Source of the DNA: Microbacteriaceae bacterium | Lineage (GTDB): Bacteria; Actinomycetota; Actinomycetes; Actinomycetales; Microbacteriaceae | Direction of reading: 5' to 3' | Length of the DNA stretch: 64,000 bases | Assembly (NCBI GenBank): GCA_025464975.1 | Contig: JAODMT010000024.1 | Location: 62,001 to 126,000, forward strand | Notes under the pieces: model-generated | Told to the model about the DNA's origin: nothing | Seen by the model: the letters and a program-made list of their open reading frames with translations, nothing else | Databases searched by the model: none | Made by a program: the position numbers and the translations under genes | Part shown: positions 3,110-27,100 of the stretch, in pieces | Layout: each line of letters opens with the position of its first letter | Numbering within the stretch: position 1 is the first letter of the stretch

Positions 3110-3730
3110 ATGGACATCATCCTCAAGAGAAATACGCCGCACCGCGCTATCCGAGACGAATCGATGAAACCGCCGATGGGTGGCTGGCTCCCGGGTATCA
3201 CCTTCACGTCGCTGCAGATCAGGACGCTAAATGCGTTCGTTGATCAGCTCATCCCGCCCGGCGGTGGTTTTCCGGCGCCGAGCGAAGTCGACGTGGTCGC
3301 CTTCTTCGCGCGGTACCTCGCGCCTGCGGGAGTAGAGCCGAAGTGGTACCCGTTCATCGGCGAGAACCAGTTCCGCAGCTGGCTCGACTCGCTCGGGGGG
3401 GCGTTCGCCCAGGCCGAATCGGCTGAGCAACTCGAGATCGTGGCGTCTGTCGAGAGATCGAATCCGGGTTTCTTCGAGATCGTGCGTGACATGGCCTATT
3501 ACGCCTACTACTCCCGGTCCGCGGTCATCACCACGATCAATCGGGAACTCGAAGCGGGCAAGGACCTCAGGAACGCGCCGCAGCCTTATGGCTACTCGGA
3601 CACGACCGAGGAGTGGGACGAGCGATTATTCGGCCAGATAACCGGTTCGTACACACGAACCGAAGACGTTCGGCGTGTCGAGATTCCGGATGTGTTGAGG
3701 GGCACCAGCAGTAAAGGAACCGAGGAATGA
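3110..3730 (+). CDS. Gluconate 2-dehydrogenase subunit 3-family protein
   Basis: 206 residues resembling the small (gamma) subunit of membrane-bound FAD sugar dehydrogenases: LQIRTLNAFVDQLIPPGGGFPAPSEVD is the typical opening of the subunit-3 domain. The start at 3110 has AAGGAGAGGGC before it. It overlaps the next gene by 4 nt (ATGA), as expected for subunits made in equal amounts. Many homologues carry a Tat signal that exports the folded complex; none is visible here (no twin-Arg followed by a hydrophobic stretch), so this complex may act in the cytoplasm. Confidence 0.82.
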   Translation: MDIILKRNTPHRAIRDESMKPPMGGWLPGITFTSLQIRTLNAFVDQLIPPGGGFPAPSEVDVVAFFARYLAPAGVEPKWYPFIGENQFRSWLDSLGGAFAQAESAEQLEIVASVERSNPGFFEIVRDMAYYAYYSRSAVITTINRELEAGKDLRNAPQPYGYSDTTEEWDERLFGQITGSYTRTEDVRRVEIPDVLRGTSSKGTEE

Positions 3731-12285: not shown

Positions 12286-12480
12286 GCGAATGCCCATACA
12301 GACCGCCGGACGCGACGCCCCAGACCCAACAGCACTACCGCACGCTGTCCAGATTCGGGTGATTCCTGACCGGATGGGCGTTGCTTCGAGAACTTTACGC
12401 CCCCAGGCTTAGTGGATAGCGCGCAAGCCGGAGCTCTTCGTATCCGGTGCTCGCGACCAGGGCAAAATGGAGGATCGAAA

Positions 12481-13452
12481 ATGGATGCTGAGCCTACCGC
12501 CACTAACACAACACCTCCGATGATGGCACTCCGCGCGCATGAGCGTGGTGGGCCCGAGCGACTTGTGTACGAAGACGCACCGCGGCCGATTGCCGGCCCG
12601 GACGAGATCTGCGTCGCTGTGCGGGCAGCAGCCATCACATTCGCTGAATTGACCTGGCCAGAGACTTGGGAAGTTAATGGCATCGATCGGACGCCTATAA
12701 TCCCGTCGCATGAATTCGCAGGAGTGGTCTCCGAAGTTGGCCCGGGTGTAATCGACTTGGCTGTGGGCGACTCGGTCTTCGGGATCGCGCCATTCAACCG
12801 CGATGGCGCAGCGGCCGAGTTTGTGGTCGTTCCCGCTGCGTACGTCGCGCGGAAGGGGACCAGGGTCTCCGATGTCGTCGCCGCCGCCGCCGCCCTGCCC
12901 GCGCTGACCGCCTGGGAGGCTCTGGGCGGTCAGGCGCACTTGGCTGCAGGTCAGCGCATCCTGATTAGGGGCGGAACCGGTGCGGTCGGGGCATTCCTCA
13001 CACAGTTCGCGCACGGGATGGGCGCCGAGGTCACGGTGACGGTCACCTCCGCATTGGCCGGGGCCCGCGCCAGGAACCTAGGTGCTGACCATGTCGTCGT
13101 GACAGGTCCTGACTCGGAGGCGCGCGACCTGCAAGCGTTCGACGTCGCAATCGATGCTGTCGGCGGCAACGTGCCCGAATGGTTGTATGCCTCGGTCCGC
13201 CCGGGCGGAGAACTCGTTGTTCTCCAGGAGCCCCCGAGCCAAGAGCTGGCCGACAAGTACGGCGTGAACGCGGTCTTTTTCGTCGTCCGCCCACGCCGAG
13301 AACGGCTAGAGGAACTGGCCGGGTTGATCGCCGCGGGTCAAGTCGAGGTGGCTATCGCTCAGACGTTTCCCTTATCTGCTGGTAGGGCTGCCTATGAGAG
13401 CGGGTCTTTGCCGAAACCCGGGCCCGGCAAGACAGTCATCCTCGTTTCCTAG
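12481..13452 (+). CDS. Zinc-type alcohol dehydrogenase/quinone oxidoreductase-like (MDR) protein
   Basis: 323 residues from ATG 12481, chosen because GGAGGA lies at 12469-12474; an upstream in-frame start at 12412 lacks such a site. It has the GroES-like N-terminal domain (IPSHEFAGVVSEVGPGV) and a Rossmann domain with the NADPH motif RGGTGAVGAFLTQFA. No structural-zinc cysteines are present, as in quinone oxidoreductase/enoyl-reductase-like MDR proteins. It probably reduces an enone or quinone with NADPH. It follows the GlxA gene on the same strand after about 195 nt; a shared role is not shown. Confidence 0.85.
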   Translation: MDAEPTATNTTPPMMALRAHERGGPERLVYEDAPRPIAGPDEICVAVRAAAITFAELTWPETWEVNGIDRTPIIPSHEFAGVVSEVGPGVIDLAVGDSVFGIAPFNRDGAAAEFVVVPAAYVARKGTRVSDVVAAAAALPALTAWEALGGQAHLAAGQRILIRGGTGAVGAFLTQFAHGMGAEVTVTVTSALAGARARNLGADHVVVTGPDSEARDLQAFDVAIDAVGGNVPEWLYASVRPGGELVVLQEPPSQELADKYGVNAVFFVVRPRRERLEELAGLIAAGQVEVAIAQTFPLSAGRAAYESGSLPKPGPGKTVILVS

Positions 13453-14034
13453 TTTGAACTCACCCATGGGGATACCGCCCAAATCGTGCCGGCGAATCCC
13501 TACCTTCGCGAACTGGCTCGAGGCCTTCCTGTCGGTACAGCACTGGACGCCTGAATGAGGCACGACTCGGCGGCGGCCCGGGCCGTGACCCACCCCTCGC
13601 GGTCAACCCCCTCGGCTGCGAATAAGCTCAACCACTTTTCTGCCACTCCGCAGATAGCCGCGAAAAAGGTAACCCGTCTGTTCTGTAGCCCTGACTTCAG
13701 GGAGGACAAACCGCGTGTACCCTGGCTCCACACACATCCCAAGAGCAGACATCCCCGTGTGGGCGGGCCCGGACAGTTGGGAATAGATTTCAAGTCCAGC
13801 ACGATTTCAATCACGCATAGCTGTCGATAGCAGGTCTTGAACCATCAACTGAACGCTTGGGCGCTTCACCTCCGCCAATCTGAGCTCCGACGCCATCTTG
13901 GAATGCAGTCGAGGGAAGGTCTCGTTGTCGATGATCTAGCCAGCATTGTCCTGGAACTTCGATACCCGCAGTGGATAAATTTAACGCCGACGGGTGCCGG
14001 GACAACGCTGGGTGAACAGGGCCAATCGGTAAAT
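13453..14034. other. 582-base stretch with no supported gene
   Basis: Open frames here are short and look like chance frames in high-GC sequence. The stretch leads into a frameshifted remnant starting near 14035 and may contain decayed upstream parts of it, but I could not recognise any. Confidence 0.5.
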
Positions 14035-14559
14035 TGGAGACCTTCCGACTGCTACAGATGAATCAAAACGATTCCGAGGCATTGAGCAAAAGTGGAAGAG
14101 CCTCGAGTCGCAACTGCAGAGAGCCGTCTTCCATACTGTCGAGCTTGTGGAACCATTCATGATCAGACTGGTCAGCGGCGCCCAGCCGGCCGAGTCGGCG
14201 TTGAGCGTGCTCCCTGAGCTGCAAAACCGAGACAAGCATGCGAGCTTGAGGGTCGTCACCGACCACGTCATCCATCAGGCGGGTTCATCGTGGTGGGCGA
14301 CCGCCGAATTCCGGTCAATTACCCGGTACTGATCGAAGACGGGATGATTCCGAACGGTAGCCGAGTGCTCGTTTCTCTCGATGACCTAGTGGTCGACTTC
14401 GAGGCCGAAATAAAGCTTGCCGCAATCGCGGGTCCTCTAGCTCGGCATAGGCCGTTGCCAAAGTCGTTCGACGACTTAGGCGCAGAAGTCGAAGCGGTCC
14501 TTGGCTCTGCAGAAAGAGCATGTCGTGAGGGGCCCCCGACCGGACCTCGGGAGGTCTAA
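14035..14559 (+). pseudogene. Frameshifted hypothetical protein remnant
   Basis: Two plus-strand frames join near 14275-14290 into one coherent protein-like sequence. The first, without a normal start codon, reads EQKWKSLESQLQRAVFHTVE, then LVSGAQPAESALSVLPELQN, and ends in RVVTDHVIHQAG. The second continues as GFIVVGDRRIPVNYPVLIED, then SRVLVSLDDLVVDFEAEIKL and a charged C-terminus ending at 14559. The simplest reading is a single gene of about 170 codons broken by a frameshift and lacking its start. I do not recognise the family. Confidence 0.45.
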
Positions 14560-14570
14560 TGAGACTGGTT

Positions 14571-16502
14571 CTAGCGATAACGCCCCGTTACGGGAAAGGC
14601 CGTCCACCGGAGGGTAGTCGCGCCTAGTGGCACCAGGCGGATGCTTTTCTCGCCGCTACCGTCAAACGCGTCGTCTTTGGGATTTGGGTCGATCGCTTGT
14701 GCGACCAGAGCGAGCGTGGGCTCACTCCATGGCGAAACCGAGGTGTCGTTTGTGAATTCCGTTGCCACGTCATGGAGCTTTGAGCCAACAAGCGCAGGCG
14801 GATACAGCACAGCTGCCGATGTGCGAACGAGGTCGAGGTCGGCGTATCCCGTCTGTTCATAGTCGCGGTGCGGCGTGGCCGCACTTTCGACGGGAAGCGA
14901 GTAGACGAGCGGACCGGCTGCCAACGACGTGCGACCGTCACTGGTCGACACCGTCCTTACATGGTGCGGTAGTTCGACGACTATCACGCTGCCGGGCAGC
15001 CATCGAGCCGAAAAGCGGAGGCGATCGGACTGCCGTATCTCGGTGACCTCTTCGGCCCCGGTTACTGTTAGCGTCGCTTCTTCGCACCATGCGGGTATGC
15101 GGACCTCCACATCGAATTCCGACTCGGACTCGGGGTCGATGTGGACTTCTACTCGTTCGTCGAAGGGGAAGGACGTTTCCTGAGTTACTAGCACTGGCCG
15201 ATCATTGATGCTAATAACGACGCTCATCGGTCCGAAAAGTTGGACACTGAGTCCTCGGGGGGTCTGGAGAATCATCCGCTCAGCCACGATCGGAAGGATT
15301 CGGCCGGCGTTCGGTGCGCAGCACACTGCGACATCGTCATGCGTTGGGGAGTAGTCCCACCGTGTTCCGAGTCGGTGGCTCGCTTCGATCTGATTCTCCG
15401 CCACAAGGTAGGCAACGGAGCGGCCGTCCTTCGCTATCGCTGCCTGAGCGGAGTTAAGGAAGAGATGCTCAGCCTGGTCGACGAAACCGAAGTCGCCGGT
15501 TATACGAGCTGCTTCGAGGAGGCTTAGCGTGAGTTCGGTCATGGCGCAGAATTCGTAGCCAGACTCGGGAAGGGGCACGGGGTAGGAGCCCGGTGAGCCG
15601 ATAGTCTCATCGCTCTTCAGGGCGCCGCCGACGCCGATCGCAGCCCGGACTTTTTGATAGCCGGAGTCGAATGCGGCCTGCAACTCCGGGTTTCCAGTAA
15701 ACGCTGCCAGGAGGAGGGGAATTCTGAGGTGCTCGGCGGTGTGTGCGCCGTGACCGATGGCCGGCTCCTCGGATAGGAGCCTCCACAATTGGCCGTCCGC
15801 GTCGGGCCAATCGAGCTCGGCTTGAGAAAAGTCAGCATAGAGAGTCGAAGCGAAATGGAGCAGGTCTGGATTGAAGGCATGCGAGATCTGCTCGATGAGG
15901 ACCTCGACCATCATGAGGTCGTGGCCGCGGCCACAGCTGTCGCCGGTATGTTTGGCGAACGCCTCTCCACTCCGCGCGGCCTCTTCGTAACGAGCGTGCG
16001 TGTAGGCGAGGGCGCGATCGACACTTTCCCAGACGTCGTCCGCCTCGGTGTAAATCGCCCAGATCTGAAGAGCGCGGAGAACGCGACTTTGCGTCCACAG
16101 ATCGCCTCCGATGTGAATCCTCTCGGCGCGGGCGCGGTCCGTGAACATGCCGATGTAGCCGTCTTCTCCCTGTGCGGCAAGTATTCGCTCAAGATATTTT
16201 CCCACGCTCACGAGAGCGTCTGAGTCGTGAAGGACTGTAGCGTGTGTCACCCACGCGAGCAGCCAATTGCCTTCGCTCTCGCCATTCCACCACTCGATGT
16301 TGGCGACATTTGAACCGCTGGAGGAGGAATCGGGTCCCAACCTCCCGCTCGCGAAGACGTCACCGCCGACCTCCGTGCTTAACTGAGGCATCGCGCCAAC
16401 GTATCCGCCTAGCGCCGTTCTCGCTTGATGTTCGAGCCAACCGCCAAGGGTGAGCCCCCGGGGATGAACTAGCGAGTAGCTGGTCTTCATATCGGATAGC
16501 AA
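14571..16502 (-). CDS. GH127-type beta-L-arabinofuranosidase-like glycoside hydrolase
   Basis: 643 residues. I choose TTG at 16502 as start because AAGGAGG lies exactly six bases upstream (16509-16515); an ATG at 16490 is the alternative. It is a DUF1680/GH127 enzyme: an alpha/alpha-barrel with the zinc/catalytic site as GYEFCAMTE (E317, C319) and DDVAVCCAPNAGR (C394, C395), matching the Glu-Cys-Cys-Cys zinc site of HypBA1 in which the second last Cys is the nucleophile. No signal peptide is visible, so it acts on sugars already imported. It is preceded by a ROK regulator and lies beside a CUT1 importer. The bond cleaved is inferred only from the family. Confidence 0.85.
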   Translation of the reverse strand: MLSDMKTSYSLVHPRGLTLGGWLEHQARTALGGYVGAMPQLSTEVGGDVFASGRLGPDSSSSGSNVANIEWWNGESEGNWLLAWVTHATVLHDSDALVSVGKYLERILAAQGEDGYIGMFTDRARAERIHIGGDLWTQSRVLRALQIWAIYTEADDVWESVDRALAYTHARYEEAARSGEAFAKHTGDSCGRGHDLMMVEVLIEQISHAFNPDLLHFASTLYADFSQAELDWPDADGQLWRLLSEEPAIGHGAHTAEHLRIPLLLAAFTGNPELQAAFDSGYQKVRAAIGVGGALKSDETIGSPGSYPVPLPESGYEFCAMTELTLSLLEAARITGDFGFVDQAEHLFLNSAQAAIAKDGRSVAYLVAENQIEASHRLGTRWDYSPTHDDVAVCCAPNAGRILPIVAERMILQTPRGLSVQLFGPMSVVISINDRPVLVTQETSFPFDERVEVHIDPESESEFDVEVRIPAWCEEATLTVTGAEEVTEIRQSDRLRFSARWLPGSVIVVELPHHVRTVSTSDGRTSLAAGPLVYSLPVESAATPHRDYEQTGYADLDLVRTSAAVLYPPALVGSKLHDVATEFTNDTSVSPWSEPTLALVAQAIDPNPKDDAFDGSGEKSIRLVPLGATTLRWTAFPVTGRYR

Positions 16503-16508
16503 GTCGAG

Positions 16509-16515
16509 CCTCCTT
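16509..16515 (-). promoter_or_regulatory. Shine-Dalgarno site deciding a TTG start
   Basis: AAGGAGG on the minus strand, six bases before TTG 16502. The match is strong and the spacing ideal, while the next ATG (16490) is 18 bases away, so the GH127 protein probably begins with TTG. Confidence 0.55.
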
Positions 16516-16575
16516 GGTCGAATCAATTGGTTCGTACAGTAGCCGAACCAACCCATCTCCACAAACACATGGCTT

Positions 16576-17817
16576 TCAGCGGGCGAGTAGACCCCTACGA
16601 GGTTCGTCAACCTGTTGTAATGCGGTGAGGGTGGCACCACGAAGCTTTGCGCGACTGTCCAAGTAGCTCCGACGCACCGTCACTGTGTCGGCGACAGCAG
16701 CCATCGCTGACTCGCGGAGTCCGGCACGCAGAGGTTCCATTATTAGGTTGCCTAGGGCGCTCACTCCGCCGCCGATCACGAGAGTGTCGGGGCCTGCAAT
16801 TTGAAGCAGCCAGGCAGCCGCATGCCCCAGATCGCGCCCGACGTCGTCGAGAAGCTTTCGGGCCGCGCGATCTCCGCTGATCGCCGCACGACCGATTAAT
16901 TCCGTGGAGGCCTGGCCGTCCAAGCTGCCCTCGAATCCGGCCTCTTGACTTCGGCGAGCGATCGCAGGACCTGAAACCAGAGTCTCTAGGCAGCCGACTT
17001 TTCCGCAGCTGCACAGAATTCCAGAACCCACTCCGACGTGCCCGATTTCGCCGGCATAGCCGGACCGGCCGCGGAACAGTCTGCCGTTGTCCACGACTGC
17101 TGCTCCAATCCCGGTTCCCACGTAAAGGAGAGCGAGGTCGGGGCTTTCGCCTCGAGCGCCGACGTACTGGGATTCTGCGACAGCCATGGCCTGCGTGGTG
17201 TTGTTGACGAAGACAGGAACGTTTAGCTCGCTTTGAAGGACGTCGGCCACAGGAATGTCTCGCCATCCGAGATTTGGCGCAATGATGCAGGTGCCCGTGT
17301 CCGGCTGCACGACTCCAGGCAAGGCGACACCCACGGCGGCCAGTCTCGAGAACGGGATTTTCGTTCGCGACAGTAGCGTTCGCACGGTCGTCGCTGTCTC
17401 TTGTAGCGCTGACGTTGGAGTCTTTTGGGACGTTCGCTTAGTGACGCTATCGACCTCGTTCCCTTGGGCGTCGGCCAGCACAACGGTCGTCTGTCGGACC
17501 CCTATGTGGATGCCGGCGACTATGTGAGACTCGGGGTTCACTTCGAGCAAAACAGCACGCCGCCCACCGGTGGAACTGCTCTGGCGGAGGCCGTTCTCCT
17601 TGATGAAACCCGAATCGATAAGATCGTCCACATGGCTCGATACCGTCGATTTGGTGAGGCTGGTTTTCCGCACCAGGTCACTCCTCGAGACCGGACCCTG
17701 CTGCCAAATGATCGAGTAGATGAGCGAACGATTGGATGCAGCTGCTGCGTCCTCGTTCGTGGTCTCTATGCGTGAAGTGCTCATTAACTCGCGGAGTCTA
17801 TCGTTCTCCCGTTCCAT
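16576..17817 (-). CDS. ROK-family transcriptional regulator (zinc-containing)
   Basis: 413 residues: an N-terminal winged helix (about 25-90, LVRKTSLTKSTVSSHVDDLI) and a ROK sugar-kinase-like domain. The zinc motif of repressor-type ROK proteins is complete: GEIGHVGVG followed by CSCGKVGCLE. It lacks nothing obvious for sugar-responsive repression of the NagC/XylR kind. It is divergent from the sugar importer and upstream of the GH127 gene on the same strand, so both are likely targets. A second in-frame ATG lies 12 codons downstream and could be the true start. Confidence 0.88.
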   Translation of the reverse strand: MERENDRLRELMSTSRIETTNEDAAAASNRSLIYSIIWQQGPVSRSDLVRKTSLTKSTVSSHVDDLIDSGFIKENGLRQSSSTGGRRAVLLEVNPESHIVAGIHIGVRQTTVVLADAQGNEVDSVTKRTSQKTPTSALQETATTVRTLLSRTKIPFSRLAAVGVALPGVVQPDTGTCIIAPNLGWRDIPVADVLQSELNVPVFVNNTTQAMAVAESQYVGARGESPDLALLYVGTGIGAAVVDNGRLFRGRSGYAGEIGHVGVGSGILCSCGKVGCLETLVSGPAIARRSQEAGFEGSLDGQASTELIGRAAISGDRAARKLLDDVGRDLGHAAAWLLQIAGPDTLVIGGGVSALGNLIMEPLRAGLRESAMAAVADTVTVRRSYLDSRAKLRGATLTALQQVDEPRRGLLAR

Positions 17818-17838
17818 GACGCGCTCTTCCAGGGGATA

Positions 17839-17864
17839 AATTTTGGTCGCTATCCGAACAAATT
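17839..17864. promoter_or_regulatory. Candidate ROK operator (inverted repeat)
   Basis: AATTTTGGTCG (17839-17849) and CGAACAAATT (17855-17864) form an imperfect inverted repeat with a 5-nt spacer in the divergent promoter between the ROK gene and the importer operon. The right half is repeated near two other genes of this locus. A TATACT box (17870-17875) lies just downstream. Confidence 0.5.
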
Positions 17865-17998
17865 GTGCGTATACTCCTACTCACCGAACCACCACGGCAG
17901 TCCCCTCCTTCGAGTCGGCTGTTGCGGTCGGGTCGTCTGCCGCTCTGCCCTTGCCTCTGCTGACTTGGGTTGGCACGAGTCAGATCAAAGGAGATTCT

Positions 17999-19234
17999 GT
18001 GAAAAAACAATCCGCGCGTCTTGCAGCAGGCGCAACGCTCGTGGTCGCACTGGCGGCGCTCACTGGTTGCTCTGCGTCGGCCTCAGGAGGGGGCTCCTCT
18101 TCCGTCACGCTGAACATTCTCGACGAATTCACGACTGCCCCCGCGTCGCCGAAGCTAAACGAGCTCATCAAAACCTATGAGAGCGCCAACCCCGGGGTAA
18201 AGATCGTCCGCACTAGCGTCCCTCAAGGGCAGGGTGTCACGAAGCTTACCCAAGGCGTCTCCACGGGGAATGCTCCGGATGTCGTATTCTTCGACAGTCC
18301 GAACACGCAGCAGTACGCCGCGCAAGGCCTCGTCGAGAATCTGAATTCAAAGGTTGCTGGGTGGGCGACGAAGTCCGAATACTATAAGGGCGCATGGGAT
18401 TCGACACAGTACAGTGGCGGCACCTACGGAGTTCCGCTATATAGCGACGCCCCCGGTATTTATGTGAATCAGGACATGCTCACGGCGGCCGGCATCTCAA
18501 AAGTGCCGAGCACTTGGACCGAGTTGCGAACCGATGCCAAAGCGCTCACCAAGAATGGGGTCTCGGGCCTTTGCTTCGGGACCACCCCCGGCGCGGCAGC
18601 GGACTATTTGTTCATGCCTTACATCTGGCAGTCCGGCGGCAGTCTCAACACTGTGGCAACAAGCGCCCTTCCGAGTCTTCAGCTGTTTCAGGCCCTGAAA
18701 GCTGACGGCTCCATCCCTCAAGACGTCCTGAACTGGACATGGCAGGACGCCTTTACGGCGTTCCAAAATAAGTCGTGTGGCATCGTCTTTGGTGGGCCCT
18801 GGAATGCCGGCGACGCAGCCAAGCTTCCGTTCAAGGTTGCGGCCGGCATTCCGCCCCAGAAGGATGGAGGCACAAAAGCCTCCGTCCTTGGTGGTTACAA
18901 CGTCGGCACCGGCAAGGGCGGCAACGTTGACGCTGCCTGGAAGTTCATCGACTGGTTCACCTCAAAGAAGGTGCTTGCTAGCTACCTTGAGGCCACCACG
19001 CAGTTGCCCAACCGGAAGGACCTTGCGGATCTATCATTCGTGAAGTCGAGTCCGTTTCTGCCCACGTTCGTGAAGTCCATCTCGATAGGGAAGCCCCGCA
19101 CGTTCGGTGCCCAACTTCCTCAGATCGATTCAGCAATCATGTCGATGTTCCAATCGGTCCTCGCCGGGAAGTTGAGCCCGACTGAGGCCGCAAAGCAGGG
19201 AGAATCTGCTATCGGTCCGCTTCTGAGCAAGTAG
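17999..19234 (+). CDS. CUT1 sugar ABC transporter substrate-binding lipoprotein
   Basis: 411 residues from GTG 17999, with AAAGGAG at 17987-17993; the longer upstream frame lacks a signal. It has a lipoprotein signal peptide with lipobox LTGC (Cys24), so the protein is tethered outside the membrane. The body is a family-1 extracellular solute-binding protein (ANPGVKIVRTSVPQG, WTELRTDAKALTKNGV, GGPWNAGDAAKLPFKVA). It captures an oligosaccharide or glycoside for the two permeases downstream. Ligand unknown. Confidence 0.92.
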   Translation: MKKQSARLAAGATLVVALAALTGCSASASGGGSSSVTLNILDEFTTAPASPKLNELIKTYESANPGVKIVRTSVPQGQGVTKLTQGVSTGNAPDVVFFDSPNTQQYAAQGLVENLNSKVAGWATKSEYYKGAWDSTQYSGGTYGVPLYSDAPGIYVNQDMLTAAGISKVPSTWTELRTDAKALTKNGVSGLCFGTTPGAAADYLFMPYIWQSGGSLNTVATSALPSLQLFQALKADGSIPQDVLNWTWQDAFTAFQNKSCGIVFGGPWNAGDAAKLPFKVAAGIPPQKDGGTKASVLGGYNVGTGKGGNVDAAWKFIDWFTSKKVLASYLEATTQLPNRKDLADLSFVKSSPFLPTFVKSISIGKPRTFGAQLPQIDSAIMSMFQSVLAGKLSPTEAAKQGESAIGPLLSK

Positions 19235-19240
19235 CAATCG

Positions 19241-19278
19241 GTCGGGGTGGCGCCATCGGTAGGCGGCGCCACCCCGAC
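19241..19278 (+). terminator. Intercistronic hairpin between binding protein and permease
   Basis: A perfect 14-bp inverted repeat, GTCGGGGTGGCGCC (19241-19254) and GGCGCCACCCCGAC (19265-19278), with a 10-nt loop, seven bases after the binding-protein stop. No T-run follows, so it more likely stabilises the upstream mRNA 3' end or causes partial attenuation, giving more binding protein than permease, than ends transcription completely. Confidence 0.75.
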
Positions 19279-19297
19279 TCCTAGCGGAAGGATCGTC

Positions 19298-20224
19298 ATG
19301 ACTCCCATTACTTCGGCTGCACCGATCCGGGCGAATGTCCGTCGTCTTCGACGGCACGGACGCTTGACCGGGATTCTCTTCCTAGCGCCCGTCGTTCTCT
19401 TTCTCGTCGGGGCGCTCGGGTACCCCATCTTTGTCAACGTCCGGTTTAGCTTCACGAGCACAACCGCCGGAACGCTTCTCAGCGGGGGCCCCTGGGTCGG
19501 CCTGGCCAACTACACTGCGGTATTCACCGATCCGAAGTTCCTCGAATCCGCCGGTAACACGGTGGTGTTCACCGTAATGTCCATTGTGTTTCAGCTCGGT
19601 CTCGGACTGCTGCTCGCCGCCTTCTACAACCAAAGGTTTCCCGGAGCCACGCGGATGTCGTCGCTATACCTCCTGGCTTGGGCGGCTCCCGTCGTAGCTA
19701 CTGGTGCCGTTTTTCGCTGGCTTTACGATCGTCAGTACGGGGTCATCAATTGGCTCCTGGGGATGCTTCATCTGACAGATGGACACACGGCTTGGCTTTC
19801 GGACACTCAATTTGCCCTGGGCGCCGTGACTGTGGCCAATATCTGGACCGGGGTTCCTTTCTACGTCACCTTCTTCCTCGCAGCGCTTAAGAACATCCCC
19901 GAGCAGGTCCATGAGGCCGCCTCAATGGATGGGGCGGGCGCGATTCGGCGATTCGTCTCGATCACCGTGCCGATGCTTCGGCCGCCGCTACTCATCGGGG
20001 GCGTCTTCGGAATCATTTTCACTCTCAAGGCCTTTGACATGATTTGGATCATGACGCGCGGGGGGCCTCTCGGGTCGACGGAAACGCTGTCCACCTACGG
20101 TTACAACCAGTTCTTTACGTTCTTCCAATTCGGCGCGGGTGCCGCGGTGATGAACGTGTTGTTAGTCGTCATGATCATCGTGGCGGCGATTTATCTGCGT
20201 GTCTCGCGAGGAGAAGAATCATGA
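19298..20224 (+). CDS. CUT1 sugar ABC transporter permease 1 (MalF-type)
   Basis: 308 residues from ATG 19298, preceded by GGAAGGA. Six hydrophobic segments and the EAA loop that contacts the ATPase are visible (HEAASMDGAGAIRRFVSITV). It forms the heterodimeric membrane channel with the next gene, which it overlaps by 4 nt (ATGA). No ATPase gene is present in the locus; actinobacteria commonly use one shared MsiK-type ATPase for such importers, so that is the likely partner. Confidence 0.92.
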   Translation: MTPITSAAPIRANVRRLRRHGRLTGILFLAPVVLFLVGALGYPIFVNVRFSFTSTTAGTLLSGGPWVGLANYTAVFTDPKFLESAGNTVVFTVMSIVFQLGLGLLLAAFYNQRFPGATRMSSLYLLAWAAPVVATGAVFRWLYDRQYGVINWLLGMLHLTDGHTAWLSDTQFALGAVTVANIWTGVPFYVTFFLAALKNIPEQVHEAASMDGAGAIRRFVSITVPMLRPPLLIGGVFGIIFTLKAFDMIWIMTRGGPLGSTETLSTYGYNQFFTFFQFGAGAAVMNVLLVVMIIVAAIYLRVSRGEES

Positions 20225-21129
20225 CCTCAACCCTTGCCCGACCAGCGGTCGCTGAGAATTTGCGGACGAACGAGCGATTTCGTTCTAAAGGGAAGACCGC
20301 TCGAAAACAGGAGCCCAGGCGTTGGTTACTCACGCTCATCGGGCTGTTGCTCCTTCTGATCTTTCTATTCCCCATCTACTGGATGATCGCCACCTCGTTC
20401 AAATCGGAGGCTCAGGCGTTCAGCAGCCCGCCACGGTTGTTCCCCTGGCCGATCGATCTAACTGCCTGGCACACCGCGCTAAGCGACCCGTCTCTGGGCA
20501 GATACCTTGTTAACAGCCTCATACTGGGCTTCGGCACGGCAATCTTCACTCTGGCTCTCGCGGCGCCAGCGGCATATGCCCTGACCCACCTGAAAGTGGC
20601 GGCAAAAGGTGTCGTACTCGCTGTCAGTCTCACATCGCTGATGTTCCCTGCGGTCATGCTCGTGATGCCGCTCTATCAGGTTTTCGCGCAGACCCACTTG
20701 CTTAACAGCTATCTGGGCCTCATCCTCGCAAACTCGACACTGACGGTGCCGTTTTCGCTCCTCTTAATGCGTCCCCTGATCTCAGCAATTCCCCACGAAC
20801 TCGTCGAAGCGGCGCAACTCGACGGTGCTTCGATGTGGGGAGTTTTCTGGCGAATCATTCTCCCGCTAGCGAGGCCGGCTCTGGCAACTACGGCCGTCTT
20901 CGCGTTTCTGATGTCATGGGGCGACCTGGTATTCGCCATCTCCCTTACGAGTTCCAACACGATGTGGCCGATCACCGCCGGGCTCTGGAACGCAATCGGT
21001 CAGAACGTTACCAACTGGCCGCAGCTCACGGCGATGGCGACCATTGCCCTGCTTCCGACGGCCGTGGTGTTCTTGCTCGCCCAGCGATTTGTAGTGTCGG
21101 GCCTCGCCTCCAGCGGGCTCAAAGACTAG
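20221..21129 (+). CDS. CUT1 sugar ABC transporter permease 2 (MalG-type)
   Basis: 302 residues from ATG 20221, coupled to permease 1. A charged N-terminal tail of about 40 residues precedes six membrane segments; the EAA loop reads ELVEAAQLDGASMWGVFWRI. It completes the importer channel in the cytoplasmic membrane. The operon ends at a strong hairpin just downstream. Confidence 0.92.
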   Translation: MTSTLARPAVAENLRTNERFRSKGKTARKQEPRRWLLTLIGLLLLLIFLFPIYWMIATSFKSEAQAFSSPPRLFPWPIDLTAWHTALSDPSLGRYLVNSLILGFGTAIFTLALAAPAAYALTHLKVAAKGVVLAVSLTSLMFPAVMLVMPLYQVFAQTHLLNSYLGLILANSTLTVPFSLLLMRPLISAIPHELVEAAQLDGASMWGVFWRIILPLARPALATTAVFAFLMSWGDLVFAISLTSSNTMWPITAGLWNAIGQNVTNWPQLTAMATIALLPTAVVFLLAQRFVVSGLASSGLKD

Positions 21130-21145
21130 CTGGTGGATCGAAGAA

Positions 21146-21186
21146 GAACTGCGAGCCCGGGCCAGACTGACGTGGGCTCGCAGTTC
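21146..21186. terminator. Bidirectional terminator between convergent genes
   Basis: A perfect 13-bp inverted repeat, GAACTGCGAGCCC (21146-21158) and GGGCTCGCAGTTC (21174-21186), with a 15-nt loop, lies 16 bases after permease 2 and 9 bases after the convergent NHL-protein stop. It can serve both transcripts. Confidence 0.75.
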
Positions 21187-21195
21187 GTCTGGCTT

Positions 21196-22167
21196 CTATC
21201 TCGCCAATGAATCGGCCAGAACGGCTGGCTTCAGCCGTATCTGCCGGCCCCCGATCATCCACTCGGTCAGGAAAATGCTGCCGTCGGTGCCGACGGCGAC
21301 TCCGTGCGGACTGTTCAAATATTGATCGCTGAGATCTGGGCGCACGAGGTGGTTCTCGCGGAGCGCATTGGGCCACGCGGGACCCCGGACAACGTCGGGA
21401 ACTTCGACGACGACCGAGAGAGTGTCGTTTCGACCGAGCGCGAGGATCCCACCCCGCAGCTCGGTGAAGACGATCTTGTCGCCGAGTACAGCTAAACAGC
21501 TAGGGGAGGTAATCAGCGGATCGTTGACGATGCGATCAACGTTTCCGTCCAGCCGATAAAACACCAGGCGGCGGTTTCCCCGGTCGGCTACGACAAGTCG
21601 ATGCACTGATGAGCGATCGTCGAGGACGAGCCCGTGTGGACAGTCGAATTGTTGTCCGGTCTCGGCGCCGGTCAGAGTGAACAAAAGCCGCCCTGCGCGG
21701 TCGAACTTGTGTACAAGGCTTGCGCCGTAGCCGTCTGCGACCCACACCCCGCCTTGCCCATCTCCCACCACCGATGTTGGGCGCCACGGCGCGGACCGAT
21801 ACTCGTCCCGGTCAGGCTGAGTGAATTCGAAGGACGAGGAAGCGTCGATTGCGACGTTGAGAACCCGTCCTTGCCTGCGCTCAGCTGCATAGTCGCGTTC
21901 AGGCCGGGGCTTTTCGCCGGGGTCCGCCAGCCAAAGCGAGCGGGGCGACTCGGGATCCACGCTGATTCCATGGATTTCAAGCAGACCTGTTGTCAGGGTT
22001 GTTGAGCTCCCCCCGTCGGGGGAGACAAAGACCAGGTCGCCTCCCTCCGGGGCGCTGAATACGACACGTCCGTCAGGGAGGACCGCGATGCCTGAATGGG
22101 ACCACTCTTGGGAGCAAGTCCCCTCTTCCCACAGGAGCTGCCAGATGTACGCACTTATCGAAGTCAT
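21196..22167 (-). CDS. NHL/SMP-30-like beta-propeller protein
   Basis: 323 residues with repeated beta-propeller blades: GIAVLPDGRVVFSAPEGGDL, PTSVVGDGQGGVWVADGYG, CPHGLVLDD followed by LVVADRGNRRL, and SPHGVAVGTDGSIFLTEW. No signal peptide is seen. Family members include lactonases and lyases acting on oxidised substrates, but blades alone do not fix a reaction. It is the last gene of the ferredoxin - ferredoxin reductase operon (overlapping the reductase by 4 nt), so it probably acts on the product of the P450 system, for example a lactone or hemiacetal. That is inference. Confidence 0.8.
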   Translation of the reverse strand: MTSISAYIWQLLWEEGTCSQEWSHSGIAVLPDGRVVFSAPEGGDLVFVSPDGGSSTTLTTGLLEIHGISVDPESPRSLWLADPGEKPRPERDYAAERRQGRVLNVAIDASSSFEFTQPDRDEYRSAPWRPTSVVGDGQGGVWVADGYGASLVHKFDRAGRLLFTLTGAETGQQFDCPHGLVLDDRSSVHRLVVADRGNRRLVFYRLDGNVDRIVNDPLITSPSCLAVLGDKIVFTELRGGILALGRNDTLSVVVEVPDVVRGPAWPNALRENHLVRPDLSDQYLNSPHGVAVGTDGSIFLTEWMIGGRQIRLKPAVLADSLAR

Positions 22168-23444
22168 TGCCGCGCTTTCGGTGTGTCAGCTCGCGAGGAA
22201 GTAAGTAGGAATGGCGCGGGATCGCTGCCGTTCGAGCCGCTCTGCTGCGCAAGTTGGTCACGGTAGTGCATGACCATTGAACGGTTTCCGATTCCGCAAA
22301 CGCCGACGAGGGTTTCGCCGTGGAAGTACCCGAATATGCACTCGGTGCTCACTCGTCCATGAACCAGCTTTATTCGGTCGGCGCGACCGAGCATTCCATA
22401 AGCAAGCAGGTGCGCATCGAATTGGTCGCTCCAGAAAGACGGGATCGGCGCGAATCGACGGCTTAGAGCAAGCTCAAGGGCTTCTGGGCCGACGACTCCC
22501 GCAGCGATGATCTCCGCTGCACGCTTTGCGGTCTCCGTCGGGATGTTCCAATGCTCGACTGTTGAGGCTTCATCGCCGAAAAGTTTGTTGGGGAATCGGG
22601 CGACATCGCCCACCGCGAAGACGTTTTTCCATGCTTGACCATCGCGTCTGAGTACCCGCATGGCCGAATCTGTGAGGATTCCTTGGTCAGCATCGATGTC
22701 GTTTCCGCGAAGCCATTCTGTGTTTTGTTGAGATCCGACCGCCTCGACGACGACGTTGCATTCCATTGTGGTGCCGTCGTCGAGCGCGACCCCTGTTACG
22801 CGGTCTTCCCCGAGAATCTGCTTCACTCGGGTGAGCATTCGGAAGCGGATCCCGTGATCTTCGTTGCGCCGCATCAGCTCTGCGGCCAATTCGGTTCCAA
22901 GGGGCCGTTGCATTGGGAATTCGTCTCGTCCAATCACTGTGACTTCGCAGCCCAGGCTTCGCACAGTTGCGGCTACTTCGCAGCCGATGAAGCCTGATCC
23001 GACAACAACGACTCGTGACTCTGGCGTCAGTGCCGACCGCAGCTCGACTGCGTCATCCAAGGTTCTCAGTGCAAAGCAGCCCCATAACTCGGAGCCTGGT
23101 ATCCGGAGGCGTTTCGGTCGCAGTCCGGTCGCGATGATGAGTGAGTCGTAGGAATAAGTATCGGAATGTGCCGAAGTGAGCGTTTGCTCGTCGAAATCGG
23201 CCGAGGTGATCCTAGTTCCGACGTGCCACGAGACGTCAGAGACTAGCGAGCGTCGAGGGAAAAATATCGCCTCGAGCTCTATTTGCGACGCGAGGAAATG
23301 CTTTGATAGGGGCGGCCGATTGTAGGGGAGGTGTGCCTCGTCGCCGATGACAGTTATGGCTCCTGAAAATGCGGATCGTCTCAGCGCCTCGGCCGCACGG
23401 ATACCTCCGAGCGATGCGCCAACAATGACGACTGATTCAACCAT
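22164..23444 (-). CDS. Ferredoxin reductase (FAD/NADH, rhodocoxin/putidaredoxin reductase type)
   Basis: 426 residues. The FAD motif VIVGASLGGIRAAEAL opens the protein, followed by the PYNRPPLSKHFL signature of this reductase group. The NAD(P)H motif VVVVGSGFIGCEVAATV lies near residue 150, and the second FAD contact is VFAVGDVARFPN. It passes electrons from NAD(P)H to the ferredoxin encoded 12 nt upstream. With the nearby P450 gene this makes a complete three-component monooxygenase chain. Confidence 0.92.
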   Translation of the reverse strand: MVESVVIVGASLGGIRAAEALRRSAFSGAITVIGDEAHLPYNRPPLSKHFLASQIELEAIFFPRRSLVSDVSWHVGTRITSADFDEQTLTSAHSDTYSYDSLIIATGLRPKRLRIPGSELWGCFALRTLDDAVELRSALTPESRVVVVGSGFIGCEVAATVRSLGCEVTVIGRDEFPMQRPLGTELAAELMRRNEDHGIRFRMLTRVKQILGEDRVTGVALDDGTTMECNVVVEAVGSQQNTEWLRGNDIDADQGILTDSAMRVLRRDGQAWKNVFAVGDVARFPNKLFGDEASTVEHWNIPTETAKRAAEIIAAGVVGPEALELALSRRFAPIPSFWSDQFDAHLLAYGMLGRADRIKLVHGRVSTECIFGYFHGETLVGVCGIGNRSMVMHYRDQLAQQSGSNGSDPAPFLLTSSRADTPKARQ

Positions 23445-23456
23445 CCCGCACGCACC

Positions 23457-23648
23457 CTATTCAGCGAGTGAAATTGCCTGCATCGGGCAGATATCGATAG
23501 CGGCTTCGACGTTGCTTAGCTCGGCGTCGTCCGCCGTTGCTTTCCACTCGAGACGGTCTTGAGCGTTCAGCTGAAACACGTTCGGTGCTTCAAAGACGCA
23601 CTGCCCGTAGTGCTGGCATCGATTCATGTCGACGCGGATCTCGATCAT
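23457..23648 (-). CDS. [3Fe-4S] ferredoxin, P450 type
   Basis: 63 residues from ATG 23648, preceded by AAAGGAAA. Cysteines at C11 and C17 (CQHYGQC) and a late Cys in ICPMQAIS give the C-x5-C...CP arrangement of [3Fe-4S] ferredoxins that serve actinobacterial P450s. It is acidic, as usual for such carriers. It is the first gene of the Fd - reductase - NHL operon and is divergent from the second ROK gene. Confidence 0.9.
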   Translation of the reverse strand: MIEIRVDMNRCQHYGQCVFEAPNVFQLNAQDRLEWKATADDAELSNVEAAIDICPMQAISLAE

Positions 23649-23691
23649 GCCATTTCCTTTCTGAAAAATGTGCCATCGCCAGTCTTGCATA

Positions 23692-23701
23692 AATTGTTCG
23701 G
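23692..23701 (-). promoter_or_regulatory. Shared element CCGAACAATT (ferredoxin/ROK promoter)
   Basis: AATTGTTCGG on the plus strand is the reverse complement of CCGAACAATT, nearly identical to the element at 17854-17864. TTCGG here (23697-23701) is mirrored by CCGAA at 23715-23719. It lies between the divergent ferredoxin operon and second ROK gene. Confidence 0.45.
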
Positions 23702-23779
23702 TAAGTGTCTAAATCCGAATCGGCCAGCTTCGGCGCTCTCGAGGTTTGCTCCCTGCATGAATAGACGGAATGCGGGACA

Positions 23780-25027
23780 ATGATCGCGACGCTCGCGGAC
23801 TTGAAGCGTCTAATTGCGACTGGAGAGGAACGCGTGATCCGAAACCCGGACCTCGCCAAAAGCCAAGGCAAAGAGGCGATTCGCCGCTTGAATCTCACGG
23901 CCGCGCTTTCGATTGTTCGGCGAGCCGGTCGTCTGTCTCGAACCGAGCTAATCAAGGAGCTGCACCTCAGTCGTACGACCGTTTTCGAGCTGGTGAGCCA
24001 GCTGGCCGATCTTGGTCTGGTCGTTGAGGATGAAGCGCCTCAGATCATCGGCGTGGGGCGCCCGAGCTTCGTAGTGAGTGCATCAAATCAGGTGGGGGCT
24101 CTTGTTGTGAACCCTGAAAGCGATGCCATCACCGTAGGCTTGGTCACTCTGGGCGGCCAAGTGCTCGAAAAGGTCCGTCGGGTGTCCCGGCAACCGCTTG
24201 ATCCCGTGGCTACCGCTGACGTCGCGTGGGAACTTGTCGGTGAGATTCGGAAACGCGTTCCGTCGGGATTTCAGATCGCCGGGGCCGGGGTGGCTGTCCC
24301 CGGACAGGTGGCGCGCGAGACCGGCATCGTCCGTCTAGCGCCCCGGCTCGGCTGGAGCGAGGTGGACTTCGGTGGCTTGCTGGCGAAACGTCTAGCCATG
24401 CCCGTCGTGGTGGAAAACAATGCCCGACTCGTTACGCTAGCCGAACACCGGCTTGGCGTGGCTCGGGGCTACACCGACTTCGTATACGTATTCGCGGGTT
24501 CCGGCGGGATAGGCGGCGGAGTGGTTGCAAACGATCTCATCGTCAGCGGAAAGAGCGGGTTTGCCGGCGAGATTGGCCATATCAGGTTAAGGCAAGACGC
24601 GAACCCTGACTTTGGTGGATTGACCGGGACCCTGGAGGCGTTGGTCAAGCGGGACGACCTACTCGATCTTTTCGAACTCGCAGACGCGTCAGACGACGAA
24701 CTGGATGATCTGATCCAGGGCGCGTCGCCTGAACTGCTTTATCCGATCGCGGAGGCTCAGTTGCAGTCCATCGGGGTTGCTTTGGGGAACCTGGCCAACA
24801 TTTTTGACCCCCAGCTCATCGTGCTTGGGGGCTTTATCGGTTCGCTCCACACGCGGTTCCCTGACACGCTCCGGGTGGGTATGACTGGCGTCGTTCTGCC
24901 CGCGATCGGCCGGACGCTCGAGATCAGATCATCGGCCGACGCATCCGGGAAGGTCCTCTTGGGTGCCGCCGAATCCGTATTCGTCCAGGTCGTAGAAAAC
25001 CCTATCGACTTCCAATACGTGGACTGA
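23780..25027 (+). CDS. ROK-family regulator lacking the zinc cysteines
   Basis: 415 residues: an N-terminal winged helix at about 35-90 (RRAGRLSRTELIKELHLSRT) and a ROK domain (FAGSGGIGGGVV, FAGEIGHIRLRQDANPDFGG). Where repressor-type ROK proteins carry CxCGxxGCxE, no cysteine is present, so zinc binding as in the first ROK gene is not possible; the fold may be stabilised differently. It is divergent from the ferredoxin operon and 101 nt upstream of the P450 gene, so it probably regulates the oxidation half of the locus. Confidence 0.85.
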   Translation: MIATLADLKRLIATGEERVIRNPDLAKSQGKEAIRRLNLTAALSIVRRAGRLSRTELIKELHLSRTTVFELVSQLADLGLVVEDEAPQIIGVGRPSFVVSASNQVGALVVNPESDAITVGLVTLGGQVLEKVRRVSRQPLDPVATADVAWELVGEIRKRVPSGFQIAGAGVAVPGQVARETGIVRLAPRLGWSEVDFGGLLAKRLAMPVVVENNARLVTLAEHRLGVARGYTDFVYVFAGSGGIGGGVVANDLIVSGKSGFAGEIGHIRLRQDANPDFGGLTGTLEALVKRDDLLDLFELADASDDELDDLIQGASPELLYPIAEAQLQSIGVALGNLANIFDPQLIVLGGFIGSLHTRFPDTLRVGMTGVVLPAIGRTLEIRSSADASGKVLLGAAESVFVQVVENPIDFQYVD

Positions 25028-25104
25028 AACTCACTGGCCTCGTTCAACCTTGGCGATTGCTAGCCGCAAGTGTTACGTTCGTGTCTTAGGATTTAGCAAC
25101 TTAG

Positions 25105-25113
25105 CGAACAAAT
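25105..25113 (+). promoter_or_regulatory. Shared element CGAACAAAT upstream of the P450 gene
   Basis: CGAACAAAT lies 15 bases before the P450 start, in the short gap after the second ROK gene. It matches the right half of the candidate operator at 17855-17864 and the element in the ferredoxin promoter. A GTTCG (25077-25081) lies upstream in the opposite orientation. Confidence 0.4.
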
Positions 25114-25128
25114 CACTCCGGAGACCTG

Positions 25129-26295
25129 ATGACCGACGAATCGACGCGGACTCGGCAAGAAATCCGTGGTTACGAGGCCGTGAGGGCCGCAGCCAAAGAC
25201 TACGAAACCTATTCCAGCGATTTGCTCGGCGACCGCGATGTGCGTAGCTATCGGCAGCTACCCCTTGAGGCTGATCCGCCTCGACACACGCAGTTCCGCA
25301 CCGCACTTCAGCCGCTGTTCATGAGTGCGGCAATCGAGCCAAAGGCTGCCCAGTTCGAAGCGCTTGCTCTTGATCTCATCCAGGGCATTACCGCCAACGG
25401 AGGCGGCGAGATTACGGGCGATCTGGCGCTTCCGTTCGTCATCGGATGTCTCACGATCATCTACGACCGTCCGCAGGACTTCGACGAGTGGCTGTCGTGG
25501 GGCCCTGATGTCTGGACAGCGGAGGCGCACGCGGCGGGGCTCGTGTCCGCAGAATCTCAGCGCGCACAACGCGACCGCGCCTTCAACACTGCGAGTCAGC
25601 GATCAGGAACTCTTCTCGAGGCGTATCTGACAAGAGTATTCGACGAAGCCGAAGCAACGCCAGAAACCGATCCCGATCGGATGGATGTTTGGGACTCCGT
25701 AGCTCAGCTTCAGGTTGGGGGACAGGGACTCACTCGTGAAGAGATGCACGGCATCGCAAACGTGCTCCTCGCCGGCGGTCGTGACACTGTCGTCAAGCTC
25801 ATCACTGGACTGACATGGCACCTGTTGCGCTCTCAAGACGACAGGATGTATCTGACGCAGAACGAAGCGGCCTTCAACCAGACGATCGCCGAAATGGTTC
25901 GCTTTCTCTCCCCTCTTCCGAAGATGGAGCGCGTCCTTCCCGAGGATCGAACATTGACCGACGCTGACCGCGACACCAGCAAGTACGTGCTGCTCAGCTT
26001 CGTTTCCGCGAACTTCGACAAAACGGTCTGGCCAGATGCGGAGGACCTCAATATCCATCGCGACCGCAAGCCGCATCTCGCCTTCGGCTTTGGCCGACAC
26101 TCTTGCATGGGCATGAACATCACCGAGCACGAGGCTAAGGCCTTCCTGCGGACGATCCTCACGAACTGGCCAGACTGGACACTCGCTGCCGAACCCGAGA
26201 TCGAGTGGGTTGTCGAAGGAGAAGGCGACGAGGCCGTCACTGTCATCGATCGCTTCGCGTCGCTCCGAGTAAAGACCTCAGCGTCAAGCAATTAG
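25129..26295 (+). CDS. Cytochrome P450
   Basis: 388 residues from ATG 25129 behind GGAG. The heme-binding loop is AFGFGRHSCMGM with ligand Cys326. The K-helix ExxR is E255-R258 (EMVRFLSP), and the I-helix oxygen-activation motif is AGGRDT (215-220), with Arg where many P450s have a neutral residue. EADPPRHTQFR near residue 50 is typical of soluble bacterial P450s. It inserts oxygen from O2, for hydroxylation or O-demethylation, using electrons from the ferredoxin/reductase encoded nearby. No fused reductase is present. The surrounding glycosidase and sugar importer suggest a sugar or glycoside substrate, which is inference. Confidence 0.93.
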   Translation: MTDESTRTRQEIRGYEAVRAAAKDYETYSSDLLGDRDVRSYRQLPLEADPPRHTQFRTALQPLFMSAAIEPKAAQFEALALDLIQGITANGGGEITGDLALPFVIGCLTIIYDRPQDFDEWLSWGPDVWTAEAHAAGLVSAESQRAQRDRAFNTASQRSGTLLEAYLTRVFDEAEATPETDPDRMDVWDSVAQLQVGGQGLTREEMHGIANVLLAGGRDTVVKLITGLTWHLLRSQDDRMYLTQNEAAFNQTIAEMVRFLSPLPKMERVLPEDRTLTDADRDTSKYVLLSFVSANFDKTVWPDAEDLNIHRDRKPHLAFGFGRHSCMGMNITEHEAKAFLRTILTNWPDWTLAAEPEIEWVVEGEGDEAVTVIDRFASLRVKTSASSN

Positions 26296-26515: not shown

Positions 26516-26550
26516 TCAGCTTTTGAAGCCATCGAGTTCAGCTTTTGAAC
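26515..26550. repeat. Direct repeat GTTCAGCTTTTGAA at the transposase 3' end
   Basis: GTTCAGCTTTTGAA occurs twice about 21 bases apart (near 26515-26528 and 26536-26549), spanning the transposase stop codon. It may belong to the terminus of the former insertion element. Confidence 0.4.
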
Positions 26551-27100
26551 TGGGAACGGCCGATCCGGTGAAAACCGGGTCGGCCGTTCTGGTTTCTGGC
26601 GAGTTATTGCCGCCGGAATTGGCCCGGAGCACCTGTTTTAGCGTCGACAAGTCGGCGAATGGGAAGAGCCCCGCCTTTTGGGCAGGGTTATTCGAGTCGG
26701 TGTTGTACGCGTTGGGGTGCTGGGTGCTGCCGGGAGGCCGGCTATTCGTGCAGGGGCGGCTCCAGTTCGGTCTCGACGAATAGCTCGGCGTCGACGGGCG
26801 AGAGTACGACTTCCGGTTCTTCGACGTGACCGGGTTGGCTGATCCGAGCTGGGTGAGGAAGGCGATGATCCTCCGGATGTTGGCCGAGGAGGCGGCAAGG
26901 GCCATCGCAACGAACGCGAACGCGTCGCCACGTTTTTGGCGTTTCTCCGGGTTGCCGAGATCTTCGGCCATCGAGTCCTTGATATGGCTGTAGGAGGCTT
27001 CGACGGTGTTGCGGAGGGAATAGTACTTCTCCCATTTGTCGCTGCGGTGTGGGTACGGTTGCACTGGCCCCGTAGCCGGATTAGCAGGCGGACACTACCC
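26516..27100 (-). pseudogene. DDE transposase, C-terminal fragment
   Basis: The readable part from about 27064 matches the C-terminal section of actinobacterial transposases: DKWEKYYSLRNTVEASYSHI, then EDLGNPEKRQKRGDAFAFVA, then AASSANIRRIIAFLTQ. The catalytic N-terminal two thirds are missing; upstream of ~27100 the sequence changes to an unrelated plus-strand gene. The last ~30 codons run through a strong hairpin, so the original protein probably ended earlier or overlapped its own terminator. I could not assign the IS family with confidence. Confidence 0.7.
26554..26589. terminator. Strong GAAA-loop terminator hairpin
   Basis: A 16-bp stem (26554-26569 with 26574-26589, one G-T type mismatch) closed by a GAAA tetraloop. 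On the minus strand it falls within the 3' end of the transposase frame, on the plus strand it is followed by a T-rich TGGTTTCTGG. It probably ends transcription in both directions. Confidence 0.65.

Follow-up and report, generated by a model that had tools for sequence, protein, structure and literature searches.

What does a cytochrome P450 with a complete electron chain do beside a glycosidase and a sugar importer? This question is raised by a 64,000-nt stretch of contig JAODMT010000024.1 from a Microbacteriaceae bacterium (the window, whose positions serve as coordinates), in which ten adjacent genes span 14571-26295. We conclude, with a probability of about one half, that they form a locus for the use of a glycoside, equipped with an oxygenase unit of its own. 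The genes were checked by open reading frame (ORF) listing and by Pfam and NCBIfam scans, and every one of the ten proteins scores above the curated cut-off of one or more fitting Pfam families. The gene content and span given in the initial annotation are confirmed in full:

14571..16640, minus strand: GH127-like glycosidase, 689 aa as called (PF20736, E 1.5e-15; PF07944, E 7.2e-9; both above cut-off)
16576..17817, minus strand: ROK/NagC-type regulator 1 (PF00480, E 5e-58, and winged helix)
17843..19234, plus strand: CUT1 solute-binding lipoprotein (PF01547, E 1.8e-39)
19247..20224, plus strand: CUT1 permease A (PF00528; MalF/GlcT-like, under the equivalog cut-offs)
20221..21129, plus strand: CUT1 permease B (PF00528; MalG/GlcU-like, under the equivalog cut-offs)
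21142..21185, no strand: 13-bp inverted repeat, terminator-like by eye, where the permease B and NHL genes converge
21196..22167, minus strand: NHL beta-propeller protein (PF01436; predicted fold; Foldseek)
22164..23444, minus strand: FAD-dependent ferredoxin reductase (PF07992, E 1.5e-62; PF14759; HcaD-like, below cut-off)
23457..23690, minus strand: three-cysteine P450-type ferredoxin (PF13370)
23780..25027, plus strand: ROK-type regulator 2 (PF00480, E 6e-32, and helix-turn-helix)
25129..26295, plus strand: cytochrome P450, carbohydrate-active-like, with a GGRDTV I-helix (PF00067; best PDB match 6g5o; tree)

In the pathway that we propose, the CUT1 importer would take up a glycoside or oligosaccharide, from which the GH127-like enzyme, probably cytoplasmic, would free a sugar. 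The three-cysteine ferredoxin and the FAD reductase would feed the P450, which may oxidise a carbon of this sugar, most likely the methyl of a methyl ether. The resulting sugar-O-CH2OH hemiacetal would decompose to sugar and formaldehyde, and the NHL propeller would act on the hydroxylated intermediate or on its product. We infer the order of the steps, the O-demethylation, the substrate and the role of the NHL protein.

The P450, its redox partners and its relatives

A single-sequence search of the PDB with the window P450 places 6g5o first (6.4e-34), followed by CYP142 (1.3e-26). With a profile of 15 family members of its group, P450-A, no PDB sequence other than 6g5o (5.3e-52) passes E<=1e-40. 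We take 6g5o to be CYP236A2, a marine 6-O-methyl-D-galactose demethylase. In a tree of 48 rows, which includes 19 rows of other P450s and has long branches, a single group with support 100/99 unites 16 P450-A sequences with 6g5o, with the GH127-linked P450 of the distant genome G888 and with two marine-type plasmid P450s, so the window P450 groups with 6g5o apart from other P450s. The GGRDTV motif is found in every member of this group and provides a partly independent check on the grouping. Its G-R-D signature is present in 17/17 P450-A, 7/7 P450-B (a further NHL-linked group), L081 and the marine type, and is carried by none of 18 other P450s of the relatives (L004-L021; L013 has GRE) and by neither of two P450-C.

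Among plasmids, a tblastn search returns 19 records, all below 60% identity, including P450s of Catenovulum and Microscilla plasmids at ~25%. Both of these adjoin a 2Fe-2S ferredoxin and an FAD oxidoreductase, and the Microscilla region has a beta-agarase, fucosidases, a zinc alcohol dehydrogenase (ADH) and an alpha/beta hydrolase nearby. P450 demethylation of 6-O-methyl-D-galactose in marine bacteria (Formosa, Zobellia) is described in PMC10033563 and PMC8360166; the former places the genes for the P450, its redox partners, an esterase and an ADH together. The window locus resembles this marine system in a P450 of the same supported group with GGRDTV, in the ferredoxin and FAD reductase alongside, and in the presence of a glycosidase. 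It differs in its ABC importer, ROK regulators and NHL protein and in having no agarase; a zinc-type ADH gene (12412-13452), which may be unrelated to it, lies 1.1 kb outside the locus. The redox partner differs as well, because the window ferredoxin is a three-cysteine protein of the Fer4_13 type and not the marine-type 2Fe-2S protein. Its exactly three cysteines, arranged as C-x5-C (CQHYGQC) plus CP, show the pattern expected for the [3Fe-4S] ferredoxin of the initial annotation, with the cluster type predicted from sequence. CQHYGQC recurs in 5/5 P450-A-linked ferredoxins that were translated (window, L028, L031, L032, L034).

At an E-value of 1e-30, the P450 is found in 7/398 genomes of the family. 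We compared 17 P450-A loci: 13 from GTDB contigs of Microbacteriaceae, Microbacterium, Micrococcales, Actinomycetales or Actinomycetota metagenome-assembled genomes (MAGs), those of G022, G364 and G320, and the window itself. Only some of the neighbour genes were family-scanned, and the locus of G351, one of the seven P450-bearing genomes, lies outside this set. Sugar-related genes accompany the P450 at nine loci, namely the window, L058 and L028 (ROK), L031 (GH125), L070 (CUT1 and alpha-amylase), L032 (sugar-acid dehydratase-like gene, short-chain dehydrogenases/reductases (SDRs) and CUT1), and L023, L027 and L033, which have a rhamnonate-type hydrolase and an SDR directly beside P450-A. The hydrolases of these last three score 329-334 bits against an equivalog cut-off of 500; L023 additionally has CUT1, GH78-type rhamnosidase and lactate-dehydrogenase-like genes. 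The complete gene set including GH127 is found in no other locus of this genome-neighbourhood comparison.

Because rhamnosidase and rhamnonate-type genes lie near some P450-A relatives, the substrate is perhaps an O-methyl-6-deoxyhexose. The hydrolase and SDR at L023, L027 and L033, which are not part of the window locus, are reminiscent of the non-phosphorylating L-rhamnose/L-fucose pathway. According to PMC4500136, O-methyl rhamnoses can occur in cyanobacterial exopolysaccharides, which fits the deoxy-sugar genes near these relatives.

The P450 and its redox partners also share a promoter element:

23692..23718, minus strand: copy upstream of the ferredoxin (SCGAACAAWT at 23692-23701)
25087..25113, plus strand: copy upstream of the P450 (SCGAACAAWT at 25104-25113)
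17854..17863, plus strand: third SCGAACAAWT, ahead of the importer genes (similarity over longer stretches does not clearly exceed chance)

The ferredoxin and P450 promoter regions are alike in 22/27 bases (0/1000 shuffles), 17/20 (0/1000) and 12/14 (27/1000). SCGAACAAWT occurs three times in the window, a count reached by 4/100 shuffles; as the motif was chosen after viewing these regions, this count by itself carries little weight. Under a stricter pattern that tolerates one mismatch, the window has two occurrences, a count reached by 27/100 shuffles. Of the three occurrences of the extended form NSCGAACAAWTNNTG in the genome, two are those at the promoters of the importer and the ferredoxin; the copy at the P450 does not match this form.

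By layout, four transcription units are likely: regulator 1 with the GH127-like gene (minus), binding protein with both permeases (plus), ferredoxin with reductase and NHL (minus), and regulator 2 with the P450 (plus). The P450 gene lies on the strand opposite to its ferredoxin and reductase genes. The 4-base overlap of the NHL and reductase genes makes translational coupling of the NHL protein to the electron chain probable; between the regulator 1 gene and the GH127-like ORF, the overlap is 65 bases. Judged by sequence context, the true start of the binding-protein gene is likely the GTG at 17999, behind AAAGGAG. Permease B, whose ORF opens at 20044, likely starts at 20221 with a 4-base overlap with permease A, and the ferredoxin likely starts at 23648 (M15), near which its CQHYGQC relatives begin. 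The GC content of the locus is ~58-61% (2-kb windows) versus 64-68% at 28 to 40 kb. Downstream of the P450, 26296-28250 has ~59% GC and small ORFs, one of which (26516-27064) has no Pfam match. A second sugar-type cluster at window positions 1-5394 contains a Peripla_BP_4 binding protein, an SMP-30 lactonase, an SDR weakly like L-rhamnose dehydrogenase, a Gluconate_2-dh3 gene and a GMC oxidoreductase; L036 has a related GMC-like gene upstream (13829-15499).

The NHL propeller and its oxygenase neighbours

NHL homologues were found in 12/398 family genomes at 1e-40 and in 8/394 class genomes at 1e-50, which gives 19 genomes as the window's own is in both. In 14/19, a whole-genome Pfam scan places a P450 or PhyH-type dioxygenase gene within 3 kb of the NHL gene, with gaps of 23 to 2961 bases. 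The neighbour is a P450 in 11 (G000, G116, G121, G252, G347, G364, G404, G569, G587, G642, G652) and a PhyH protein in three (G008, G315, G373), each of which has one PhyH in the genome. The NHL gene has no nearby oxygenase in G076, G354, G561, G597 and G620; by BLAST it neighbours a rhamnosidase-like gene in G076 and a sugar major facilitator superfamily-like gene in G354. Random placement of the oxygenase genes, with 5 kb on each side, predicts 0.21 NHL neighbours versus 14 observed (P ~1e-24), and scoring each of 12 genera by its worst member still gives 8/12 (P 2e-13); as neither functional clustering nor the common ancestry of genera enters into this model, these values speak for non-randomness and not for a mechanism. 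Two further sets beyond the 19-genome count occur in L032 and on the Embleya plasmid L084 (31% identity).

The NHL-linked oxygenases fall into five separate groups from two unrelated superfamilies: P450-A, P450-B, P450-C and two PhyH groups that are 24-29% alike. A P450-B profile (4 rows) finds 6m4p first in the PDB, followed by PikC/EryF-type enzymes, and P450-C is accompanied by a Fer2 protein. Many of these sets are accompanied by CUT1-type genes, by LacI, AraC or ROK regulators, or by GH78 genes. The initial annotation had let the NHL protein act on the pathway product almost as an afterthought. That role stays an inferred one, and it is this protein that has the most striking conserved neighbourhood.

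Several of these regions have further features of their own. L074, L075 and L076 combine NHL, P450-B, reductase and importer-like genes with a ferredoxin in 3/3, and L074 also carries an alpha-N-acetylglucosaminidase (NAGLU) gene. A conserved block in L060 and L062 (Pfam scan on L062 only) consists of ROK-like, SIS-domain, SDR, phospho-furanose-lactonase-like PTE, FAD_oxidored and CUT1-type genes, then NHL and PhyH. In L077, L078 and L079 (G597, G561 and G620, with 1.3-1.5 Mb genomes) the P450s lie elsewhere in the genome than the NHL homologue, which is adjoined by an ABC-ATPase-like gene in L077 and L078. On the Embleya plasmid (3853-4438, 12665-13438), the NHL homologue is accompanied by a PhyH gene with two adjoining PhyH-like pieces, by a sugar-binding-protein-like gene and by two genes that are AraC-like according to BLAST.

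The fold model of the window NHL protein, made from two input sequences, is of moderate confidence (predicted local distance difference test 72.7, predicted template modelling score 0.79). It is a propeller, as expected for a PAL-type lyase. Among the 50 Foldseek matches listed, NHL domains and designed propellers are on top, the peptide-amidating lyase PAL (3fvz) is at rank 14, and streptogramin B and virginiamycin B lyase are at ranks 23, 37 and 49; in this model-based comparison, the scores largely reflect the common propeller fold. PAL 3fvz matches the NHL protein by profile at 4.6e-12 and has 14% identity in the Foldseek alignment. PAL has a three-histidine zinc site with Tyr and Arg. In an alignment of 18 NHL rows, H24, H66, H178, H288, Y147, R196, R200 and R308 are invariant.

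A propeller of this kind could also belong to a different chemistry, in which the oxygenase hydroxylates the sugar ring instead of a methyl group and the NHL protein serves as lactonase or epimerase for the oxidised sugar. SMP-30-type lactonases are propellers too, one is encoded at the left end of the window, and the PhyH-NHL locus L062 has the phospho-furanose lactonase-like gene (167 bits, cut-off 630) with a 72% homologue in L060. We nevertheless regard this reading as unlikely, since PAL and virginiamycin B lyase, and no SMP-30 protein, are among the 50 matches listed and L062 and L060 already carry a lactonase-like gene of another family.

By analogy, we propose that the NHL protein may handle the hydroxylated intermediate and finish a dealkylation that the oxygenase starts, as PAL does in peptide amidation. 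There, according to PMC3241674, PAL cleaves the product of the hydroxylation by PHM, and in base this product also decays non-enzymatically. The likeness to PHM-PAL (peptidylglycine alpha-amidating monooxygenase) lies in an oxygenase paired with an NHL propeller. Unlike the copper enzyme PHM, the oxygenases here are of heme or PhyH type, the genes are separate and stand in sugar loci, and the lyase activity is putative.

Evidence on both sides and competing readings

The pathway of import, GH127 cleavage and P450 oxidation in the initial annotation is borne out in part by the kinship with 6g5o, the sugar genes at 9/17 loci, the element shared by P450 and redox genes and the gene set of G888. 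The following observations weigh against it. The window P450 has 24-25% identity to the marine-type plasmid P450s L082 and L083, a further difference from the marine system. This is below the 40% that usually defines a CYP family, and the substrate cannot be transferred at this distance. By the initial annotation, homologous P450s found consistently outside sugar loci would refute the pathway, and this is partly the case: seven of the 17 loci (L022, L024, L025, L026, L035, L029, L030) have no evident pathway and one, L034, is of aromatic type with an HpaG-like gene, against the nine with sugar-related genes. The FAH-family gene of L034 had clustered with those of L023, L027 and L033; reading L034 as a sugar locus was rejected because the gene is HpaG-like by NCBIfam, with 31-32% identity to these three by BLAST. 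In L022, L024, L025, L026 and L035 the P450 occupies the same conserved position, next to PIF1- and CtaG/CopD-type genes and, in 4/5, an esterase-family gene (Pfam scan in L022, BLAST clustering in the others). The P450-adjacent esterases of L022, L024, L025, L026 and L028 have weak local matches at most to the marine esterase.

The electron chain points the same way. Of ten genomes whose P450-A has no redox partners next to it, eight carry a reductase homologue (48-55%) at another place, with a second copy in one. These eight regions, two of whose contigs end early, contain an FAH-family gene in 7/8, a ferredoxin in five and a second P450 in 6/8, and in the one region scanned, L100, HpaD-, HpaE- and HpaG-like genes are present, all under the NCBIfam cut-off. 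In the relatives, this electron chain is thus shared with aromatic-type metabolism, and this is the chief argument against a role confined to sugars. The HpaD/HpaE/HpaG-like cluster (scanned in L100) recurs in several MAGs (L098-L105) with the reductase, often a CQHYGQC ferredoxin and a second P450, which in L100 is of AGNETT type.

From these regions and L034 it could be argued that the P450 acts on a non-sugar part, a methoxy-aromatic or plant-glycoside aglycone, and that GH127 merely removes the sugar. With 6g5o as the closest solved P450, no aromatic-pathway family among the scanned window genes and nine sugar-related loci, we consider this improbable.

The GH127-like enzyme belongs to its family by both the catalytic and middle Pfam domains, above cut-off, and in the alignment it has EFC and CC where 4qjy has ETC and CC, so that the E-x-C and CC motifs are kept. 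These residues have functional roles in GH127. It shares domains and motifs with the family's beta-L-arabinofuranosidase, aceric acid hydrolase and 3,6-anhydro-galactosidase, and is far under the NCBIfam aceric acid hydrolase cut-off (80 versus 950 bits). By eye, no obvious signal peptide is found. GH127 enzymes on 3,6-anhydro-D-galactose in carrageenan are described in PMC8360166. Three plasmid records have weak GH127 matches (24-27% identity).

At E<=1e-60, however, none of the 398 family genomes except that of the window has GH127, and a conserved cassette of GH127, importer and P450 was therefore rejected. At the importer promoter, likeness to the shared element is not clearly above chance: 60/1000 shuffles are as good for 20 bases of the ferredoxin region, otherwise 223 to 452/1000, and this comparison gave no evidence of an operator in common with the importer. 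Both results would suit two neighbours with separate jobs, in which importer, regulator 1 and GH127 use an L-arabinofuranoside-like sugar and regulator 2, P450, ferredoxin, reductase and NHL do something else. We hold this to be doubtful, as several other NHL-oxygenase sets have sugar-importer genes nearby and G888 again combines a GH127-like gene, a GGRDTV P450 and a PhyH dioxygenase, on a 10-kb contig with GH31 and an AraC-type regulator (BLAST). G888 and G1002 are the two further genomes with GH127-like genes at 1e-40 among 286 of the phylum. In G1002 (L086 1657-5998, 32.5% GC contig) its neighbours are a gene of the URO-D family and a second ORF that has no match in Pfam. The URO-D family includes corrinoid methyltransferases. 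These two cases are no more than suggestive. The importer itself has a binding protein and two permeases and, by Pfam, no ATPase gene among the ten locus genes; CUT1 ATPases are commonly shared between importers.

For the proposed O-demethylation, the fate of formaldehyde also counts: the mycothiol-dependent formaldehyde dehydrogenase TIGR03451 has a best score of 163.6 in the genome against a cut-off of 512.9 bits, with other formaldehyde routes outside this search. The NHL protein might be a new enzyme class, a lyase for the hydroxylated hemiacetals of O-demethylating oxygenases and the sugar counterpart of PHM-PAL, a proposal to which we give a low probability. Since such hemiacetals decompose spontaneously, a lyase may be dispensable.

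Titles and abstract openings on NHL or GH127 with P450, sugar demethylation and freshwater Actinobacteria do not describe this gene set; most subscription papers lie outside this coverage, which is therefore no proof of novelty. P450 sugar demethylation is documented in marine bacteria, and if our reading is true, it would extend to Actinomycetota, where the redox partners and the route of uptake differ. If the lyase reading holds, NHL proteins would mark O-dealkylation loci that were previously unrecognisable, and a propeller found in sugar loci together with oxygenases of unrelated folds would let genomes reveal such pathways. It also poses a chemical question: does the breakdown of a hydroxylated ether need an enzyme in cells?

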